This document shows, one piece after another, positions 549-11,466 of a DNA stretch of 15,051 bases. A program made the position numbers and the translations under genes. Origin of the DNA: Candidatus Brocadiaceae bacterium (GTDB taxonomy: Bacteria; Planctomycetota; MHYJ01; JACQXL01; CAKKQI01). Location of the stretch: positions 1 to 15,051 of the forward strand of contig CAKKQI010000106.1 of the NCBI GenBank assembly GCA_919901895.1, in the 5' to 3' direction. Numbering within the stretch: position 1 is the stretch's first letter; each line of letters starts with the position of its first letter. The notes under the pieces were generated by a model. It had not been told where the DNA came from, made no database searches, and worked only from the letters and a program-made list of their open reading frames with translations.

Positions 549-615
549 GGTAGACAACGAAATTTATTTCGTTGATCTTATGAAGTTTCAACGGACATAA
601 AATCCGTTGGCTACC
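549..615. repeat. Modular palindromic repeat, copy 1 (GGTAGACAACG family)
   Basis: The outer arms GGTAGACAACG (549-559) and CGTTGGCTACC (605-615) are inverted repeats with one mismatch. Inside are two hairpins: CAACGAAAT/ATTTCGTTG (555-574) and CAACGGA/TCCGTTG (589-595, 603-609). An almost identical copy lies at 11400-11466. No reading frame is evident. It sits in the queC-queA spacer. Confidence 0.85.
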
Positions 616-638
616 ACAGAACAGAAATAATCTTATCT

Positions 639-744
639 GGTAGACAATCCCTCACGGGATCCCATAGGGAGCAGGATCAGAGAGACGAGATTTATCTCGT
701 TGATATTTAATACATTATCAACGCACTAAAGTGCGTTGTCGACC
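639..744. repeat. Modular palindromic repeat, variant copy upstream of queA
   Basis: The outer arms GGTAGACAA (639-647) and TTGTCGACC (736-744) match the ends of the copy at 549-615, but the interior differs. It holds ATCCC/GGGAT (647-651, 656-660), ACGAGAT/ATCTCGT (685-691, 694-700) and CAACGCAC/GTGCGTTG around TAAA (719-738). The linker to the previous copy, CTACCACAGAACAGAAATAA (611-630), recurs with small changes at 11371-11390. The element ends 22 bases before the queA start, so it would be in or near the queA leader. Confidence 0.75.
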
Positions 745-2692: not shown

Positions 2693-3799
2693 ATGCACCC
2701 AAGACTATTAGAAATACCGGTTTTACATCTGCCGATTTATTCGTACGGGTTTATGGTGATGCTCGGATTTTTAGCGGCGATTTTTATCGCCAGCCGGCGG
2801 GCCCGACAGATTAATGTTTCACCGGAAACCATTTTAGACCTGGGCATTATTGCGATGATTAGCGGCGTACTCGGGGCGCGCCTGGCTTATCTGGCTATGT
2901 TCCCCCGGCATTTTGACTGGCAGGCCTTTAATATTTTTGACGGCGGGTTAAATATTATTGCGATAATTATCGGCTGGTTCATACCTTATGTTTTTTTTCT
3001 GTTAACCAGAAAAAAAACATCCCCGGACGACCAAAAAAGAAACCGACCTCTTTTAAAATTTACCCTTTTGTTTACCACTTCCATTATCAGCGCAGTCATC
3101 ATAGGACGCCTTGTTCATCTCATTCTGCATCAGAAAGAATACGGACCAAACATTTTTAAATTTCTGTATATCTGGGAAGGCGGACTGGTTTTTTACGGAG
3201 GACTTTTGCTAGCCGTCGTCTGCGGAATTTTTTATTTGCAATACAAAAGAGTTACGGCTTTAAAGATAGCCGATTTACTCGCGCCGGTAACCATGCTGGG
3301 ACTGGCGCTGGGCCGGGTCGGCTGTTATTTGAACGGCTGCTGTTACGGAAAAATAGCGCTGGACCTTCCCTGGGCGGTTGAGTTTCCGAATTTTCAAGGA
3401 AAATTTCCGGGCAGCCCGGCTTTTGAGCAACACGTGGAACTCGGGAAAATACTAAAGGACGCTCCGGCCAGCCTGCCCGTCCACCCCATCCAGATTTATT
3501 CTTCGTTCATCGCATTAATTTTATTCGTTTTTTTATCAGTTCTCTTTTATAAAAATAAAGACACGTCTGAACCATCACCCAAAGACGGCGTGGTGGTGGC
3601 GTATTTACTAATCGCTTATCCAGTCGCCCGGTTCCTCCTGGAATTTTTACGGGGCGATAACGAAAGAGTCTGGACCGGCTTAACCGTTTCCCAAATTATC
3701 AGCGGGTTTGTTTTTCTCATCGGGTTGGGATTCTGGTATTATATTTCAAGAAAATATAACCACAGATCAAAAATAAATGATGTCCACCCGTCTAAGTGA
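2693..3799 (+). CDS. lgt: Prolipoprotein diacylglyceryl transferase Lgt, enlarged form
   Basis: Lgt is an inner-membrane enzyme that moves diacylglycerol from phosphatidylglycerol to the lipobox cysteine of prolipoproteins. The product has 368 residues. Visible signatures are SYGFMVM near residue 16, WEGGLVFYGGLL (161-172), the Lgt signature LGRVGCYLNGCCYG (206-219, with R208, N214 and G215), HPIQIYSS (264-271) and RFLLEFLRGDNER (313-325). The conserved histidine of the Escherichia coli HGGL motif is a tyrosine here (YGGL). The family is usually about 260-300 residues; the extra length is mostly residues about 90-160, which contain what looks like a second copy of the GARL...GGL module (61-66 and 83-86 versus 138-140 and 161-165). 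Several membrane segments are evident. The stop overlaps the next gene by 23 bases, indicating translational coupling. Confidence 0.95.
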   Translation: MHPRLLEIPVLHLPIYSYGFMVMLGFLAAIFIASRRARQINVSPETILDLGIIAMISGVLGARLAYLAMFPRHFDWQAFNIFDGGLNIIAIIIGWFIPYVFFLLTRKKTSPDDQKRNRPLLKFTLLFTTSIISAVIIGRLVHLILHQKEYGPNIFKFLYIWEGGLVFYGGLLLAVVCGIFYLQYKRVTALKIADLLAPVTMLGLALGRVGCYLNGCCYGKIALDLPWAVEFPNFQGKFPGSPAFEQHVELGKILKDAPASLPVHPIQIYSSFIALILFVFLSVLFYKNKDTSEPSPKDGVVVAYLLIAYPVARFLLEFLRGDNERVWTGLTVSQIISGFVFLIGLGFWYYISRKYNHRSKINDVHPSK

Positions 3800-6700
3800 T
3801 TTTTGCGACAAGATAATTGAAGCCGGCTGGTTGGTTACTTTAACCGCCGTCCCTTTATTTTTTAATCCTTACTTGGAAATCCCCGGCTACGTTTTTGAGG
3901 CAAGCAAAACGTTCATTTTACGCTCGGTCATTTTCGTAATGCTGGCCGGCTGGCTGATAAAAAAAATTGAAATAGGCGGCCTGCGTTTTAATCTTAACCC
4001 TTTTCAATCCTTCCGTAAATTTCCCATCATGCGGCCGGTTTTGCTGTTAGGCATCGTTTTCTTAATTTCTTCAATTTTTTCTATTTCGCCGCGACTGAGT
4101 TTCGGCGGATTATATCTGCGGGAAGAAAGTTTTTTTTCTTTTATTTCATATATTTTATTTTTTTTCCTGATGGTCGACGGGCTCAAAACCAAAGAACAAC
4201 TGAACCGCATCTTGAATACCATTATTCTGGTAAGTTTTCCAATCAGTCTTTACGGTGTTTTTCAACATTATGGTTGGGACCCAACTAAATATAGCGGGGC
4301 CAGCGTACAGACGCGGGTAACTTCCACCTTTGGGGGGCCTATTTTTGTGGCCGGTTATCTGATGATGGTGTTGCCGTTAACTTTTTACTTCTGCATTAAA
4401 TCATTTACCGGAAAAACCGTTTTATCGTATTTATCGGGAGCCGCCTATACTTTAATATTAGCATCACAATTAGCCTGTTTTATCTTTGCCTGGAGCCGGG
4501 GGCCCCTGCTGGGATTATTAACCGCTTCAATCTTTTTTATTCTGCTGCTCGCATTAGTCGAAAAAAAGAGATGGTTATTCGCAACTGCATCCGGAATTAT
4601 TATTTTAGCGGGTATATTTTTTGGGCTGCTAAATATTACCAATTCTCCTTTTCCCGGACTGAAAAAATCGGCCGGTCGGTTCGGAAATATTATCCAGGAA
4701 TCCCAGACCGGCAGCGGAAAGGTGCGGTTATTAACCTGGGACAGCGCCCTTTCCATTATCAGTTCCAGCCCGGCCCGGTTGCCTTTTGGCCCCGGGTTAG
4801 AATCGCTTTTTTACCTGTATTACCGTTACACCCAGCCCTCTTTCGCCCGGTTTGAAAACTCTACGGCAATTCCGGACCATTCACATAACGAAACACTTGA
4901 TTTATTAATCACCGGCGGAATCCTGGGATTACTGGCTTTTCTGGCCATCATTATCCTGGCCGCCCACCAAACACTTCAAAAACTCGGGCTGATAAATAAC
5001 CGGAAGGAAACAAAAATATTTGGCCTTATTTTACTTTTCTGCCTGCTGGCCGGCATTCTTATTCCGGCCGCCATAAAAAACTCCTTTATGTTAATTGGAT
5101 TAACGACTCCCCTATCGCTTATCGGCGGCATTTTTTTTTATTTTTTATATTATCTTTTTTTTATGACCGGAACCGGGGCGATTGATACCGAGCCGGATAG
5201 ATTATTAGTCCCACAATCCGGCGATTCCTTATTATTAATTGCTCTTTTCAGCGGTATCATCGGCCATTTCGTAGAAATCCAATTTTTATTCGGGCTGACG
5301 GCCACCCGCTTGCACTTCTGGACCTATCTCGCCCTGATTACGGCTTCCGGTGTAATTCTCCTGAAACAGACGACCGGTTCGGCTACACTCACCACCAGCC
5401 CGGACGAGAAGACCGCGAACCAAAAAACTAACGGTTCGTCCCGCTTTAACGAGCTCACCACCGGAACAGGTAAAAATCTTGAAAAAGAAGACGTGACCAA
5501 CCCAGCTCTTTCCGGGAGAAAGGGCGTGGGCAAGACCATTGATTATACCAAAACATTCTTTCTTTATTCGGTGCTAACCGGCTTAATTTTATCTATTTTA
5601 TTGTTTGAACAGGCTAAAGGAAAACATCCGGTTACAATAATAACCGATTTGAATTATTTAGTGGTAATTATCCTGTGGCTATTTTCCGGAATATTAATCA
5701 TTATCTCAATCGGACGTGATTCTTGTGGTGAGCGTAGCCGAACCAACGGCAAACCTTTTATCTGGCATTTTAATTTTTACCTGCTTTATTTACTATTAAG
5801 CGGATTATGGGCCGGGATAGCGTTGATGGTTCACGCCTGGCTCATCACCGATAAAATCAACCTGACCGATCCCCCATTATTTATTAATTTATTCTACCTC
5901 TGGCTCGGGATAAATCTGATAATGCTGATCTCTTGTTTGAGCGGGCCGGCAAAAAATATTTCTGCTTCTTCTAACCGGCTACTTAAAATTCCGTGTTATT
6001 TATTTTTACTTTTTTTGGTCTGGCCGGTTATTTACCATTTAAACTTTAAGAAAATTTATGCCGATGCGTATTGCCACCTCGGTGATGAATACCAATCGGT
6101 CGGACAGTGGGATAAAAGTATTAACGAGTTTAAACGCGCGATTGAACTGGCGCCCCGGACAGACGTCTATTATAACTATATCAGCAAATCTTATGAAAAG
6201 AAAAAAGATTGGCCGGCGGCGGAAAAATATCTCAAGCAAGCCCGGGGAGCGAATCCCTTTACCCCGGAACCGCTGATGAACCTGGCCTGGCTGTACCAAC
6301 GCTGGGCTGAGAGTGTCCCGGCTGAGCGCGTCCAGAAATTAGAACTGGCTCTTAAGACATACGAAGAAATAGTTCAGCTGGCGCCCCTCAGACCGCATAT
6401 TTTTAAGGATTGGGGTGCTATTTATTTACTGAAAAAAGATTATGAATCGGCGGCGGAAAAATATCGCCGGGCCTTAGCCCTGGACGAATCAGCCGAACTT
6501 TATTTTTCGCTCGGTTATACCTATTATTTATTAAATAAGATTGACGAAACGATTGAAAGTTACGAAAAAGCCGGGCGTTGGAATATCCCGCGCGCCTATG
6601 ACCTGCTGGCTAAATTAGCCCAGGAATATTTTGAAAAAGGAAATTATGAAGCATCGGTTAAGACCAATTTAATTTTAATAAAATTCAGACCGGATAATTA

Positions 6701-6860
6701 TTTCTCCTATAATAATACCGCCCTCGCTTACGAATATCTTAATCAATTAGAAACATCTTTACAGTATGCCCAAAAAGCATTAGAACTGGCTCCGCCGGAA
6801 AGAAAACAAGCGGCGGAAGACTTGAAAAAGAATATTGAAAATAAATTAAAACCTAAATGA
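3777..6860 (+). CDS. Wzy_C/O-antigen ligase-like membrane protein fused to C-terminal TPRs (first paralog)
   Basis: This 1027-residue protein has many membrane segments (about residues 15-750) followed by TPR repeats (about 757-1020). Wzy_C-family hallmarks are WSRGPLLGLL at 239-248 and the luminal loop with DHSHNE at 367-372, then GILGLLAF. Such proteins ligate or polymerise glycans on the periplasmic face (WaaL, Wzy or PglL types). TPR units such as YQSVGQWDKSINEFKRAIELAP suggest a protein-binding tail. A hydrophilic stretch near residues 540-595 contains palindromic repeat DNA, as does a short loop near 650. It starts at 3777 (ATG ATG) inside the end of lgt, with no Shine-Dalgarno, so coupling to lgt translation is likely. 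The stop overlaps the next, paralogous gene as ATGA. Substrate and ligase-versus-polymerase role are not decidable; the domain architecture is clear. Confidence 0.85.
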   Translation: MMSTRLSDFCDKIIEAGWLVTLTAVPLFFNPYLEIPGYVFEASKTFILRSVIFVMLAGWLIKKIEIGGLRFNLNPFQSFRKFPIMRPVLLLGIVFLISSIFSISPRLSFGGLYLREESFFSFISYILFFFLMVDGLKTKEQLNRILNTIILVSFPISLYGVFQHYGWDPTKYSGASVQTRVTSTFGGPIFVAGYLMMVLPLTFYFCIKSFTGKTVLSYLSGAAYTLILASQLACFIFAWSRGPLLGLLTASIFFILLLALVEKKRWLFATASGIIILAGIFFGLLNITNSPFPGLKKSAGRFGNIIQESQTGSGKVRLLTWDSALSIISSSPARLPFGPGLESLFYLYYRYTQPSFARFENSTAIPDHSHNETLDLLITGGILGLLAFLAIIILAAHQTLQKLGLINNRKETKIFGLILLFCLLAGILIPAAIKNSFMLIGLTTPLSLIGGIFFYFLYYLFFMTGTGAIDTEPDRLLVPQSGDSLLLIALFSGIIGHFVEIQFLFGLTATRLHFWTYLALITASGVILLKQTTGSATLTTSPDEKTANQKTNGSSRFNELTTGTGKNLEKEDVTNPALSGRKGVGKTIDYTKTFFLYSVLTGLILSILLFEQAKGKHPVTIITDLNYLVVIILWLFSGILIIISIGRDSCGERSRTNGKPFIWHFNFYLLYLLLSGLWAGIALMVHAWLITDKINLTDPPLFINLFYLWLGINLIMLISCLSGPAKNISASSNRLLKIPCYLFLLFLVWPVIYHLNFKKIYADAYCHLGDEYQSVGQWDKSINEFKRAIELAPRTDVYYNYISKSYEKKKDWPAAEKYLKQARGANPFTPEPLMNLAWLYQRWAESVPAERVQKLELALKTYEEIVQLAPLRPHIFKDWGAIYLLKKDYESAAEKYRRALALDESAELYFSLGYTYYLLNKIDETIESYEKAGRWNIPRAYDLLAKLAQEYFEKGNYEASVKTNLILIKFRPDNYFSYNNTALAYEYLNQLETSLQYAQKALELAPPERKQAAEDLKKNIENKLKPK
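5416..5462. repeat. Palindrome-like repeat inside the first Wzy_C gene
   Basis: CGAACC (5416-5421) and GGTTCG (5433-5438) are an inverted pair. GCTCACCAC at 5453-5461 is the reverse complement of GTGGTGAGC at 5725-5733 in the same gene. The encoded peptide lies in the hydrophilic linker around residues 547-562 and is low in recognisable domain character. Confidence 0.5.
5501..5530. repeat. Interrupted palindrome inside the first Wzy_C gene
   Basis: CCCA (5501-5504) pairs with TGGG (5527-5530), and CTTTC (5508-5512) with GAAAG (5518-5522). The CTTTC...GAAAG core is shared with the palindrome at 10427-10453 in the zinc-finger gene. It encodes part of the hydrophilic linker NPALSGRKGVG; NPAL also occurs in the extra QueA segment. 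Confidence 0.5.
5723..5747. repeat. Short palindromic repeat encoding CGERSRTN
   Basis: GGT (5727-5729), GC (5732-5733), GC (5737-5738) and ACC (5742-5744) form an imperfect palindrome, GGTGAGCGTAGCCGAACC. Sequences of this GGTGAGC...CGAACC type are common dispersed repeats in many bacterial genomes. It encodes a hydrophilic insert, RDSCGERSRTNGK, between two otherwise hydrophobic segments. Confidence 0.6.
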
Positions 6861-9800
6861 AACAAACCAGACTTGGATTATTTTGTGAAAAATTGATTGA
6901 AGCCGGCTGGCTGGCCGCCCTGATTATCGCACCGCTTTTTTTAAATTTCCACTCTACCAGCGTGGTGGAAATTGATAAAAGCAGTTTAATCCGTTCGCTC
7001 GCGCTGGTAATGCTGGTGGCTTACCTGATTAAATTATTGGAAACCGGTAAATCGCTTCCAGGCAAACCCCAAACAACCACCTCATCCCGCTTGGGGCGGG
7101 ATTCCACTATCGCTTCATCCGTTTTCCGCCAGCCCCTAACCGTTTGTTGCCTGCTGATGGGACTGGTTTATCTTTTTACCTCAATCATCTCCGTCACACC
7201 GAACATTTCCTGGTGGGGAGATGATGCCCGCGGGCAGGGTAGTTATACCCTGATTTCTTACGTCCTCATTTTTTTTATCACGCTCCGCAGTTTAAAAACA
7301 ACGGAACAGGTTAAACGTATTATCACGGTCGTAATCCTGGCCAGCCTACCGGCGGCGTTATACGGACTCAGCCAGTTAAAATGGTTTGGCCTGGGCGTCC
7401 TGGACCCGCTCAGATGGGATGCGAATTTCTCCGACCGGATCGGCAGTTTTATGGGGAATCCGATCTTCTTCGGAGCTTATCTGGTAATGGTTATCCCTTT
7501 AACCACCGCTCAAATAATCATAACTGCTTCTCAAAAGGATAATCTGGTCAACAAAATTATTCTTATTGTCTGTTATAGCATTATCTTACTGTTACAATTA
7601 ATCTGTCTGCTCCTGACGCAAAGCCGCGGTCCAATCTTAGGCCTGCTGGCCGGGATGTTCTTTTTCATCATCTGCTATTTAATCATCCGAAAACAAAGAA
7701 CGCTGGTTTTATTATCGTATGGCCTGGCGGTTGGTTTGGTCCTATTTTTAATTATTTTAAATTTGCCGATCACCACCGGACCGATTGCCCAACTGAAAAA
7801 AATAAAATACCTGGACCGATTCAGCACGATGTTTGAAGGACGGGATTCCGGTAAAGTCCGGTTGCTCATCTGGGAAGGAATTATCAACATGATTAAAGAC
7901 AATTCCGGCCGGGCGATGATCGGCTATGGACCGGAAACCCTGTTCGCGCCGTTCCAAAAATATACCCCGCCCGAACTGGTTCGTTTTGAACACCGGACGG
8001 CCCACCCGGACCGCTCGCATAATGAATTTTTTGACACGCTGGTCACCACCGGCTTTATCGGGCTGAGTATTTATCTGGCTATTTTCTGGTTTATTATTTT
8101 TTATTGCCTCCGATGGCTAAATCTGCTGAAAGAAAAAAAACAACAACTCTTATTTATAATTTGCTCATTCGGCGGAATATTAGCCGGTTTTGTCGCGCCT
8201 TTGATACTGACCGGTTCTTTTATTTTTACCGGACCGGCGGTTCCTTTGGGATTGATGAGCGGAGCCGCGCTTTATTTATTTATTTTTACCCTGCGCCGAA
8301 CCGGATATTATGACGAAACTTGCCCAGAATTTAACTTCGGGAAACAAATTGCGCAGAATGAATTTTCCGTAATAATTATCGCCCTGCTGGCCGCCTGTCT
8401 TGGCCATTTCGCAGAAACGCAACTCAGTTTCGGACTGACGCCGACCAGGACATATTTTTGGCTGTTTACCGCGGTTTTAATCTTTACCGGCGCGCGTTTG
8501 CTCCAATCCCAGCCAATAGCGGAACAAGATAATCAGGATAAAAAAACAACCGAACCAGTAACAACATTTTCTTCAGGAAAATGTTATCTTTACTTTTATT
8601 CGGCCATAACGGCCCTGGTAATGTCGGTACTCCTTTATAATTTTGTGACGGGCTTAAAAATACCGGACCCGAACCGGGCCGGCGTTTCTTTGGATTTTTT
8701 TTCCGTGCTGGCCGATAACCTGGCTGCTTCAATGAAACCGGCTCATCTTTTATTTTACCTCCTGATGTTCAGCGGGTGGTTGCTGACCGGAATTATTATT
8801 GCTTCAGTTCCTTCTGCTACGCCCAGGGCAAGAAACTTTTTTAACTATTTATCTATTTACGCCGTCGTTTCTTTAATCGCTTTCTTGTTATATTTCGTAC
8901 TTCATACCGTTTTTCTTTTTGAACCGGTCTGGAATCCGCCGCCGGATTCCGCCCATTTGATAAAAACATTAGCCCCGGTCGGAACCAATGCCCCTTCTAT
9001 TTTTTACCTATTGAAACCACCGGGCAGTGCGGTAATTATTGTCTTTCATCTCTGGCTGCTGCTCGGACTGATTTTTGTTGCCCTGATGATACCAGCCGGG
9101 AAAAAAACCGCTCGCGCTCATTCCGACCGGAAGAGGGACGAAAGAAGTGAAAAACTCCCATTGCTACGATCAGGTAATATTCCTTTTATCATGGTGCTCG
9201 GCGGCCTGACAACTTTGTTTATCGTTAAAACCAACCTTAATCCACTCAGGGCCAGCCCGGTTTTAAAAAATGCCGGTGCATTTGAAAACATCAAATTATG
9301 GGATGAAGCCCTTAAACGGTATGAAAGCGTGCTTGATTTAACCTGGAATCACACCTATTACTACGCCTCATTAGGCCGGGTTTATCAGGAAAAATATTTC
9401 GGGGAACCGGACCACAAAAAACGAGCCTTGTATTTGGAAAAAAGCCGTGACTATTTATTAAAATCGTTATCATTTTCTCCCTTAGAACAGAAACGCAATG
9501 CCAATCTTGGACGTTTTTACCGAATGCTCGCCCAGAACACTTCAAACCTGTCGGAACGGGCGGCTAAATTAAAAGAAGCGGCCGATTATTATGAACGCGT
9601 CTATCAGCTCAGTCCTTATGACCCGGAACTGGTCAATGAATGGGGTTCTACTTATTATGAAATGCAGAATTATCAGAAGGCGCTGGAAATTTACCGGATT
9701 TCATTAGCGGCGGATAAGAATTTCGTGGAAACGCTGGCCCACCTTGGAGAGGTTTATCTGGTTTTAAATAATCCGGATGAAGCGCTCAAGCATTATGAAA

Positions 9801-10027
9801 AAGCCGGATTATTATATTTTACCGGACTGGAACTGCTTCGTGATTTCCATCAGATCGCCCTTTTTGTCCGAACGAATGAAATATTGTTAAAACATCGTCC
9901 TGAATATTACCGTGATGAAAAGAACCGGCAGATGTGTTTATATCTATCACGGAATACTCGCCCAAACGCCCCGCCTGAGTTACAGGTGAGATTAGATTTA
10001 ATTATCAAGCAATTAGAGCAAAAATAA
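6857..10027 (+). CDS. Wzy_C/O-antigen ligase-like membrane protein fused to C-terminal TPRs (second paralog)
   Basis: The 1056-residue product repeats the design of its upstream neighbour: the start TRLGLFCEKLIEAGWL matches TRLSDFCDKIIEAGWL, multiple membrane segments follow, QSRGPILGLL lies at 255-264 and DRSHNE at 385-390 corresponds to DHSHNE. TPRs occupy about residues 800-1050, for example WDEALKRYESVLDL and YQKALEIYRISLAADKNF. A membrane glycan ligase or polymerase with a cytoplasmic or periplasmic TPR platform is inferred from the Wzy_C family. The two genes are a tandem duplication that has diverged strongly: the first member has DHSHNE where this one has DRSHNE, and the linkers differ. 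The ATG overlaps the previous stop by four bases (ATGA) and has no Shine-Dalgarno, so translation is probably coupled. A small palindrome at 7084-7102 encodes part of the linker SSRLGRDST. Confidence 0.85.
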   Translation: MKQTRLGLFCEKLIEAGWLAALIIAPLFLNFHSTSVVEIDKSSLIRSLALVMLVAYLIKLLETGKSLPGKPQTTTSSRLGRDSTIASSVFRQPLTVCCLLMGLVYLFTSIISVTPNISWWGDDARGQGSYTLISYVLIFFITLRSLKTTEQVKRIITVVILASLPAALYGLSQLKWFGLGVLDPLRWDANFSDRIGSFMGNPIFFGAYLVMVIPLTTAQIIITASQKDNLVNKIILIVCYSIILLLQLICLLLTQSRGPILGLLAGMFFFIICYLIIRKQRTLVLLSYGLAVGLVLFLIILNLPITTGPIAQLKKIKYLDRFSTMFEGRDSGKVRLLIWEGIINMIKDNSGRAMIGYGPETLFAPFQKYTPPELVRFEHRTAHPDRSHNEFFDTLVTTGFIGLSIYLAIFWFIIFYCLRWLNLLKEKKQQLLFIICSFGGILAGFVAPLILTGSFIFTGPAVPLGLMSGAALYLFIFTLRRTGYYDETCPEFNFGKQIAQNEFSVIIIALLAACLGHFAETQLSFGLTPTRTYFWLFTAVLIFTGARLLQSQPIAEQDNQDKKTTEPVTTFSSGKCYLYFYSAITALVMSVLLYNFVTGLKIPDPNRAGVSLDFFSVLADNLAASMKPAHLLFYLLMFSGWLLTGIIIASVPSATPRARNFFNYLSIYAVVSLIAFLLYFVLHTVFLFEPVWNPPPDSAHLIKTLAPVGTNAPSIFYLLKPPGSAVIIVFHLWLLLGLIFVALMIPAGKKTARAHSDRKRDERSEKLPLLRSGNIPFIMVLGGLTTLFIVKTNLNPLRASPVLKNAGAFENIKLWDEALKRYESVLDLTWNHTYYYASLGRVYQEKYFGEPDHKKRALYLEKSRDYLLKSLSFSPLEQKRNANLGRFYRMLAQNTSNLSERAAKLKEAADYYERVYQLSPYDPELVNEWGSTYYEMQNYQKALEIYRISLAADKNFVETLAHLGEVYLVLNNPDEALKHYEKAGLLYFTGLELLRDFHQIALFVRTNEILLKHRPEYYRDEKNRQMCLYLSRNTRPNAPPELQVRLDLIIKQLEQK
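7084..7102. repeat. Palindrome inside the second Wzy_C gene
   Basis: ATCCCGC (7084-7090) and GCGGGAT (7096-7102) form a perfect 7-bp stem with a five-base loop. It encodes a hydrophilic linker between the first membrane segments. The CCCGC/GCGGG core is shared with the queA palindrome at 1681-1709 and with intergenic hairpins. Confidence 0.6.
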
Positions 10028-11330: not shown

Positions 11331-11369
11331 CAACGACCCCGCTCCCGCCCCGGCGGGACGGGGTCGTTG
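11331..11369. repeat. Long compound hairpin with CAACG arms and a CCCGCC core
   Basis: CAACGACCCCG (11331-11341) pairs perfectly with CGGGGTCGTTG (11359-11369). Inside, TCCCGCC (11343-11349) pairs with GGCGGGA (11352-11358). The only unpaired stem base is C11342. The outer CAACG/CGTTG ends and the following TCTACCAC belong to the repeat family at 549-744, and the core to the CCCGCC family. Confidence 0.8.
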
Positions 11370-11399
11370 TCTACCACGAGAACAAAAATAATCTTATCA

Positions 11400-11466
11400 G
11401 GTAAACAACGAAATTTATTTCCTTGATCTTATGAAGTTTCAACGGACATAAAGTCCGTTGTCTACC
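11400..11466. repeat. Modular palindromic repeat, copy 2 (near-identical to 549-615)
   Basis: GGTAAACAACG (11400-11410) and CGTTGTCTACC (11456-11466) are inverted arms with one mismatch. The interior matches the copy at 549-615 at nearly every position, differing in the first hairpin (ATTTCC instead of ATTTCG) and in the second loop (TAAAG instead of TAAAA, with GTCC restoring a longer stem). It lies beyond the 3' end of accA. Confidence 0.85.

Follow-up and report, generated by a model that had tools for sequence, protein, structure and literature searches.

A probable GTAG-type REP/REPIN family with a constant CAACG/CGTTG foot and a paired, variable mid-stem in uncultured Planctomycetota

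The closest described systems are the GTAG REPs, a superfamily of 24 families according to the available text of Di Nocera et al. (2013; PMC3733652), most of which divide into subfamilies whose stem residues differ in a complementary manner; the same text reports frequent G-T pairing, common inverted dimers, some within larger palindromes, and GTAG REPs in the PVC superphylum. RAYT genes flanked by inverted REPs, together with a suggestion of selection for complementary mutations, are found in the available portion of Nunvar et al. (2010; PMC2817692). In the accessible sections of Corneloup et al. (2021; PMC8266576), the E. coli REP tolerates replacement of its upper stem by the complementary sequence but not its loss, cleavage suffers when perfect stems contain mismatches, and the Marinomonas TTTA loop requires T12, T13 and A15. 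RAYT distribution is described as patchy and ascribed to horizontal transfer in the excerpted text of PMC6006769. As far as these partial texts allow comparison, the hairpins described here share with the GTAG superfamily a tag at one end, a short stem, complementary stem variants, inverted dimers and dimers in larger palindromes, and differ in their hosts, uncultured Planctomycetota and one member of the Elusimicrobiota, the comparison being with descriptions and not with family consensus sequences. They resemble the RAYT/REP pairs of PMC2817692, in its available portion, in REP-flanked RAYTs, palindromes retained through complementary changes and inverted doublets, but occur in other phyla, have another stem, and show no cognate RAYT in the genome of the window. 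With the Mb TnpAREP/REP system of Marinomonas MWYL1 (PMC8266576, same sections) they have in common a perfect palindrome, a TTTA loop and a GTAG guide, whereas the Marinomonas stem is 5 bp long and two bases from GTAG, and the present one, known from sequence, is 8 bp long and one base away. Since covarying REP stems are already contained in PMC3733652 and PMC2817692, covariation as such is not new. No earlier description of this CAACG-foot family was found in literature searches, a comparison from which the family figure of PMC3733652 is excluded: among the matches listed, none for RAYT and anammox concerned REPs by title and those containing GTAGACAACG were unrelated by title, while the REP term occurred in none of the best matches listed for REP with Brocadia or Planctomycetes.

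The window analyzed here, 15,051 nt long, is the complete contig C106 from a 2.50-Mb genome in 509 contigs (G000). The genome is that of a member of the Planctomycetota, the phylum of the best named relatives listed for its AccA (69-73% identity). The window holds two clusters of tagged hairpins, at 549-744 and 11331-11466, both between genes, with the following features.

549-574, plus strand: tagged hairpin (REP), core AAA/TTT, loop TTTA
575-588, no strand: linker ATCTTATGAAGTTT, identical at 11426-11439
589-615, minus strand: inverted tagged hairpin GGTAGCCAACG, core GAT/GTC, forming a REPIN with 549-574
616-638, no strand: spacer ACAGAACAGAAATAATCTTATCT
639-660, plus strand: decayed tagged hairpin GGTAGACAATCCC with another foot (CAATCCC)
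685-702, plus strand: headless hairpin remnant ACGAGATTTATCTCGTTG
719-744, minus strand: tagged hairpin GGTCGACAACG, core CAC/GTG
11331-11375, minus strand: tagged hairpin with a long, GC-rich nested apex, core ACC/GGT
11376-11399, no strand: spacer ACGAGAACAAAAATAATCTTATCA
11400-11425, plus strand: mutated tagged hairpin GGTAAACAACG, 3' arm CCTTG instead of CGTTG
11440-11466, minus strand: tagged hairpin, core GAC/GTC, loop TTTAT, forming the second REPIN copy with 11400-11425

Every site named in the preliminary description is present in the window, and its modular palindromes are real, although the basic unit proves to be one tagged hairpin, from which the larger forms are assembled as inverted pairs, linkers and spacers. 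One REPIN is present twice, at 549-615 and at 11400-11466, both times with the 14-nt linker ATCTTATGAAGTTT; in each cluster a spacer of 23-24 nt (ACAGAACAGAAATAATCTTATCT or ACGAGAACAAAAATAATCTTATCA) connects the REPIN to a further unit, and the shared linker noticed earlier was found to form part of this spacer. At 639-744 lies a decayed pair made up of a hairpin with an altered left foot, the headless hairpin and a tagged hairpin, and the supposed compound hairpin at 11331-11369 exists but is one minus-strand tagged hairpin that reaches 11375. The outer ends said to be shared by three units do recur in the window as GGTAGACAA (eight matches at up to one mismatch against 1.8 expected, a number reached in 0 of 200 shuffles), but none of the three has both ends perfect: 549-615 finishes in GGCTACC, 639-744 finishes in GTCGACC and 11400-11466 begins with GGTAAAC. 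Folded as single-stranded DNA, four window units gave z values of -4.0 to -6.1, and each of the two window REPINs folds best into a single long hairpin that unites its two tags, in preference to two short hairpins. This recalls REPINs (Bertels and Rainey, 2011; PMC3116915), mobile units made of a pair of inverted REPs that fold into one hairpin, from which the present set differs in appearing orphaned in the genome of the window and in having both GTAG-outside and GTAG-inside pairs. Hairpins with the same tag and a different foot, GGTAGACAATCCC at 639-660 and on contig C421 near 3710 and GGTAGATAATCCC on C331 near 1520, are perhaps a sister REP type.

Genome-wide, the unit reads GGTAG, one base, CAACG, NNN, loop, N'N'N', CGTTG, that is, a constant foot, a variable upper stem and either a TTNA loop or a longer apex, the constancy of head and foot in this genome being partly a product of the search design. 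The base between head and foot is mostly A, elsewhere C, G or T. All 38 short-cored hairpins of the genome have the TTNA loop; longer apices occur in 32 of 70 hairpins, 19 of which lack TTNA and 25 of which have an inner part of at least 60% G+C. Some of these apices consist of extra sequence within an otherwise normal loop (C98:3213 against the short AGG-TTTAT-CCT form, for example), which looks like the insertion of other palindromes. The expectation that the family extends through the genome was borne out, GGTAGACAACG being present at 60 exact and 38 one-mismatch sites (98 in all, against 23 for the reversed control), and the two-arm pattern GGTAGACAACGN{4,40}CGTTG at 45 sites against none for the control. 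A covariance model built from 15 hand-picked hairpins (the hand-picked alignment, A1, is illustrative only) detected at least 72 hairpins at E≤0.01; as 150 candidates per genome were scored, all counts from such structure-aware censuses are lower bounds. The tag lies directly 5' of a short palindrome in many dispersed, mainly extragenic copies, as in GTAG-type REPs. Judged by its sequence, this is a real and well-supported REP family, and we consider it very probable that the CAACG-foot hairpins are a GTAG-type REP/REPIN family with past mobilization by a RAYT.

Pairing of the cores was evaluated in the 70 of 98 sites with a usable CGTTG within 60 nt, a choice blind to the core that left out 28 sites. 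Of the 70 hairpins, 63 form every one of the three inner pairs, far beyond chance (right-core shuffles, mean 12.9, maximum 25 in 10,000), so that the preliminary claim that core changes keep pairing holds with the reservation that seven hairpins, including that at 11400, miss at least one inner pair in this test. Counting copies as independent overlooks that many stem from recent spread, which tests on distinct sequences reduce but do not remove: 41 of 48 distinct hairpins (shuffle mean 8.8, maximum 18) and 18 of 24 distinct core pairs (mean 2.7, maximum 10) are fully paired. Watson-Crick pairs account for 191 of the 210 inner pairs in this genome, with 11 G-T pairs and 8 mismatches. In a second set, drawn from accession-named genomes with the pattern GGTAGACAACGNNNTTTANNNNCGTTG and both cores free (92 units from 80 of 95 stretches matched), 88 units are fully paired, 86 by Watson-Crick pairs only (shuffle mean 28, maximum 44); 24 of the pattern matches provide no independent check of other genera, several coming from G001, G006 and G007 (DAOWBV, JASEHY, JACQXL). 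The earlier formulation that structure rather than sequence is under selection is too strong: it suits the mid-stem, which is free but paired, and not GGTAG, CAACG/CGTTG and the TTNA loop, which are shared sequence.

The hint in the preliminary description at a RAYT-like gene led in two directions: RAYTs flanked by these hairpins exist in other genomes, and the sole RAYT detected in the genome of the window bears other REPs. GGTAGACAACG-type hairpins lie on both sides of a 162-aa RAYT in Candidatus Scalindua sediminis (Planctomycetota; L152:2210-2698) and of a 163-aa RAYT in the Endomicrobia genome JANXDG (Elusimicrobiota; L151:4690-5181). The two proteins are 56% identical and score 96.8 and 87.3 bits, respectively, above the 80-bit cut-off of REP_Tyr_transpos (NF047646), and the Scalindua protein matches TnpArep of PDB entry 4er8 (E=2.4e-8). 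Misbinning of the Endomicrobia contig seems unlikely, as the neighboring NadE is 93% identical to one labeled Elusimicrobiota. From this arrangement, the flanked RAYT in Scalindua and Endomicrobia probably moves the hairpin. GGTAGACAACG within one mismatch was found at 5 of 77 RAYT loci (60 distinct RAYTs), namely L222, L216 and three loci that hold the two RAYTs flanked on both sides. We did not count L222 as a partner, because its GGTAGACAACG REPIN lies on one side only and is accompanied by other GTAG hairpins; L216 has one GGTAGACAACG hairpin, ~0.9 kb from a broken gene. Separately, two GTAG-type palindromes lie within the RAYT ORF of L222 itself (1440-1505), with the frame intact. Homologues of the Scalindua RAYT at E≤1e-30 were absent from 23 genomes of the class; at E≤1e-20, 18 genes were found in 11 of 392 genomes drawn from the phylum, and only one of their loci has GGTAGACAACG close by, that of the G384 gene, which shows 100% identity with the query.

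The one detectable Y1 transposase of the genome of the window (C364; L031:1435-1911) is RAYT-like, scoring 74 bits against NF047646, below the cut-off, has GTAG hairpins in its flanks and is 25% identical to the Scalindua RAYT. It was rejected as the obvious partner because the hairpins beside it are of the GTAGCTGCG and GTAGCGGCG types and the surrounding 3.3 kb contain no GGTAGACAACG at one mismatch or fewer, though it may also act on GGTAGACAACG hairpins. A separate REP family (GTAGCTGCG.../GTAGCGGCGACC...), whose stems come in alternative complementary versions, accompanies this RAYT within L031:1396-2010, and a RAYT of G001 (L197) shares the foot of that family. With the resident RAYT flanked by other REPs, the copies in this genome look orphaned, and at 93% genome completeness a RAYT gene could be missing; we infer that the RAYT to which they belong was lost, escaped assembly or was external.

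Across genomes, the censuses gave 72, 18, 5, 3, 2 and four times zero in nine genomes of the order, and 119, 65, 70, 10, 12, 8 and 6 in seven accession-named genomes (all lower bounds); a pattern search in 59 relatives matched five, the genome of the window among them. The genomes with a hairpin-flanked RAYT hold 8 and 6 copies, and the richest, with 119, has no such RAYT among its matches; nor was a Y1 locus flanked on both sides found in the three richest genomes (119, 70 and 65 copies), 30 of the 31 Y1 matches having been read for flanks. Copy number therefore does not track the flanked RAYT, which speaks for old or external mobilization, or for RAYTs absent from the assemblies, and against a simple picture of one RAYT and many REPs. 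The survey adds a well-marked REP family with nameable candidate partner RAYTs in Planctomycetota, including anammox relatives, and in Elusimicrobiota.

GTAG hairpins lie within 300 bp of the RAYT at 36 of 60 distinct RAYT loci, and at least two different ones at 25. After omission of L222, L226 and L228, which are mixed (mean Hamming distance >4), mean pairwise mismatch over positions 1-9 after GTAG at the remaining 22 loci was 0.06, 0.08, 0.06, 0.14, 0.20, 0.57, 0.53, 0.24 and 0.18; positions 1-5 are thus near constant and positions 6-7 vary most, across REPs with quite different feet. Because the hairpin finder accepts only perfect stems of 6 bp or more and the loci are related, this is a pattern and not a test of pairing. 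We read guide and foot as an address and the mid-stem as a free paired segment. In the mechanism that we propose, the family is, or formerly was, mobilized by a RAYT, a TnpAREP-type HUH tyrosine transposase: in a single-stranded phase, during replication for example, the unit would fold as a DNA hairpin, the RAYT would read the GTAG guide, the constant CAACG/CGTTG foot and the TTNA loop and would then cut and join the strand nearby, and the upper stem, held by pairing alone, would drift through compensatory change. Folding in vivo, recognition, cleavage and any present mobility are predictions of this scheme; its account of why the mid-stem is free seems to us reasonably likely. Against the scheme count the other REPs beside the RAYT of the window's genome, the small number of RAYT loci with GGTAGACAACG, copy numbers that do not track the flanked RAYT, the long apices without TTNA, and the folding of the two REPINs as one long hairpin each. 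Covarying stems fit the TnpAREP biochemistry in the available sections of PMC8266576, although the finding there that central bases of the S. maltophilia stem play some role counts against a fully free mid-stem. More tentatively, and with slightly less than even confidence, we suggest that RAYT specificity is a modular hairpin code, in which the GTAG guide, a 4-5-base foot and the loop form the address and pairing holds the mid-stem, and that the foot-CAACG address travelled with a RAYT between Planctomycetota and Elusimicrobiota, filling some genomes with orphan copies, which sit inside other palindromes and themselves take up such insertions. With one foot and loop shared by dozens of different paired cores, the family is a natural mutagenesis set predicting what the enzyme reads in a REP. 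Beyond the known features of REPs stand the spread over two phyla, the constant foot and variable mid-stem at the 22 RAYT loci, and the nesting in frames with terminal inverted repeats (TIRs).

The hairpins might instead form a REP family in which mutation itself (arm-to-arm template switching during replication, quasipalindrome correction), and not selection for processing by a RAYT, maintains the pairing of the cores. Such a process would suit the preponderance of perfect Watson-Crick cores in both pairing sets and the replacement of whole three-base cores around an unchanged loop, but the G-T and mismatched pairs among the 210 represent intermediates, and mutation alone leaves unexplained both the constant foot and the variability of positions 6-7 at the 22 RAYT loci. 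We regard this account as improbable, and retain selection on RAYT-processed hairpins as the preferred reading.

Placement and inverted pairing of the units speak for the REP reading. Only 3 of 60 units fall inside ORFs of at least 100 codons, though 79% of the stretches are coding by the same rule; tandem ORFs flank 32 units, divergent ORFs 11 and convergent ORFs 7, with 10 units at edges. The three within such ORFs, which are putative genes, are C250:3617-3643, C503:867-902 and C333:473-499 of G000. Close inverted pairs, the REPIN arrangement, comprise 34 of 64 units, with GTAG inside in 11 pairs and outside in 6, and none in tandem. Nesting bears on a second possibility, that a TIR element (a MITE with ends (T)TAGAGCGTATTTCATAACC) spread the copies and the REP dimers are mere cargo. 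A composite of ~150-160 bp, in which inverted (T)TAGAGCGTATTTCATAACC ends surround two GTAG-inside hairpins, occurs on the unlinked contigs C237, C421, C341 and C503 of G000 with unrelated flanks (identity between C237 and C421, 97.5% over 160 bp), as expected if the TIR element had carried the dimers, and the same ends enclose other repeats at C231 and C360 and, with one end, at C443. As the TIR-end pattern had 24 matches against 20 for the control, only places with AGAGCGTATTTCATAA were used. The same ends around different cargo identify the frame as a TIR element in its own right, some copies of which contain REP dimers. It is doubtful as a general vehicle, given that TTATGAA, the inner part of the TIR ends, follows within 40 nt in only 19 of 60 units and that other dimers, monomers and the RAYT-flanking hairpins have no such frame; spread of the family by this element is quite unlikely. 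The frame has both ends at L268 and L275 and one end at L279; its cargo differs between copies, with GTAG hairpin dimers in the four composites and other repeats in the rest.

Still less plausible, in our judgment, is selection of the units as RNA hairpins, that is, as mRNA stabilizers, attenuators or terminators. Their intergenic position, for 32 of 60 units between tandem genes, would suit such a role, and REPs elsewhere are reported, in the source text available, to act in transcripts. A T5 run within 12 nt, however, was found in 0 of 60 units on the strand of the unit (4% of background windows have one) and in 0 of 60 on the other, the latter a weaker test in which half of the stretch is tag, and an intrinsic terminator was rejected for lack of any unit combining hairpin and T run. 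An Rfam family was likewise rejected, with no match at the gathering cut-off, G-T pairs are few, and the linkage to RAYTs would be left unexplained. The composition of the inner pairs suits DNA more than RNA but falls short of proof; taken with the missing T runs and Rfam match, the choice between RNA and DNA offered in the preliminary description leans to DNA. Chance palindromes, for which only the 23 reversed-control matches of the simple 11-mer at one mismatch might speak, have a negligible probability and are refuted by the two-arm pattern count and by a pairing test far above its shuffles. Elsewhere in the window, two long, adjacent ORFs (3777-6860 and 6857-10027) overlap by 4 bases, each matching the IctB model in front and TPR-type models behind, and are likely a tandem duplication.
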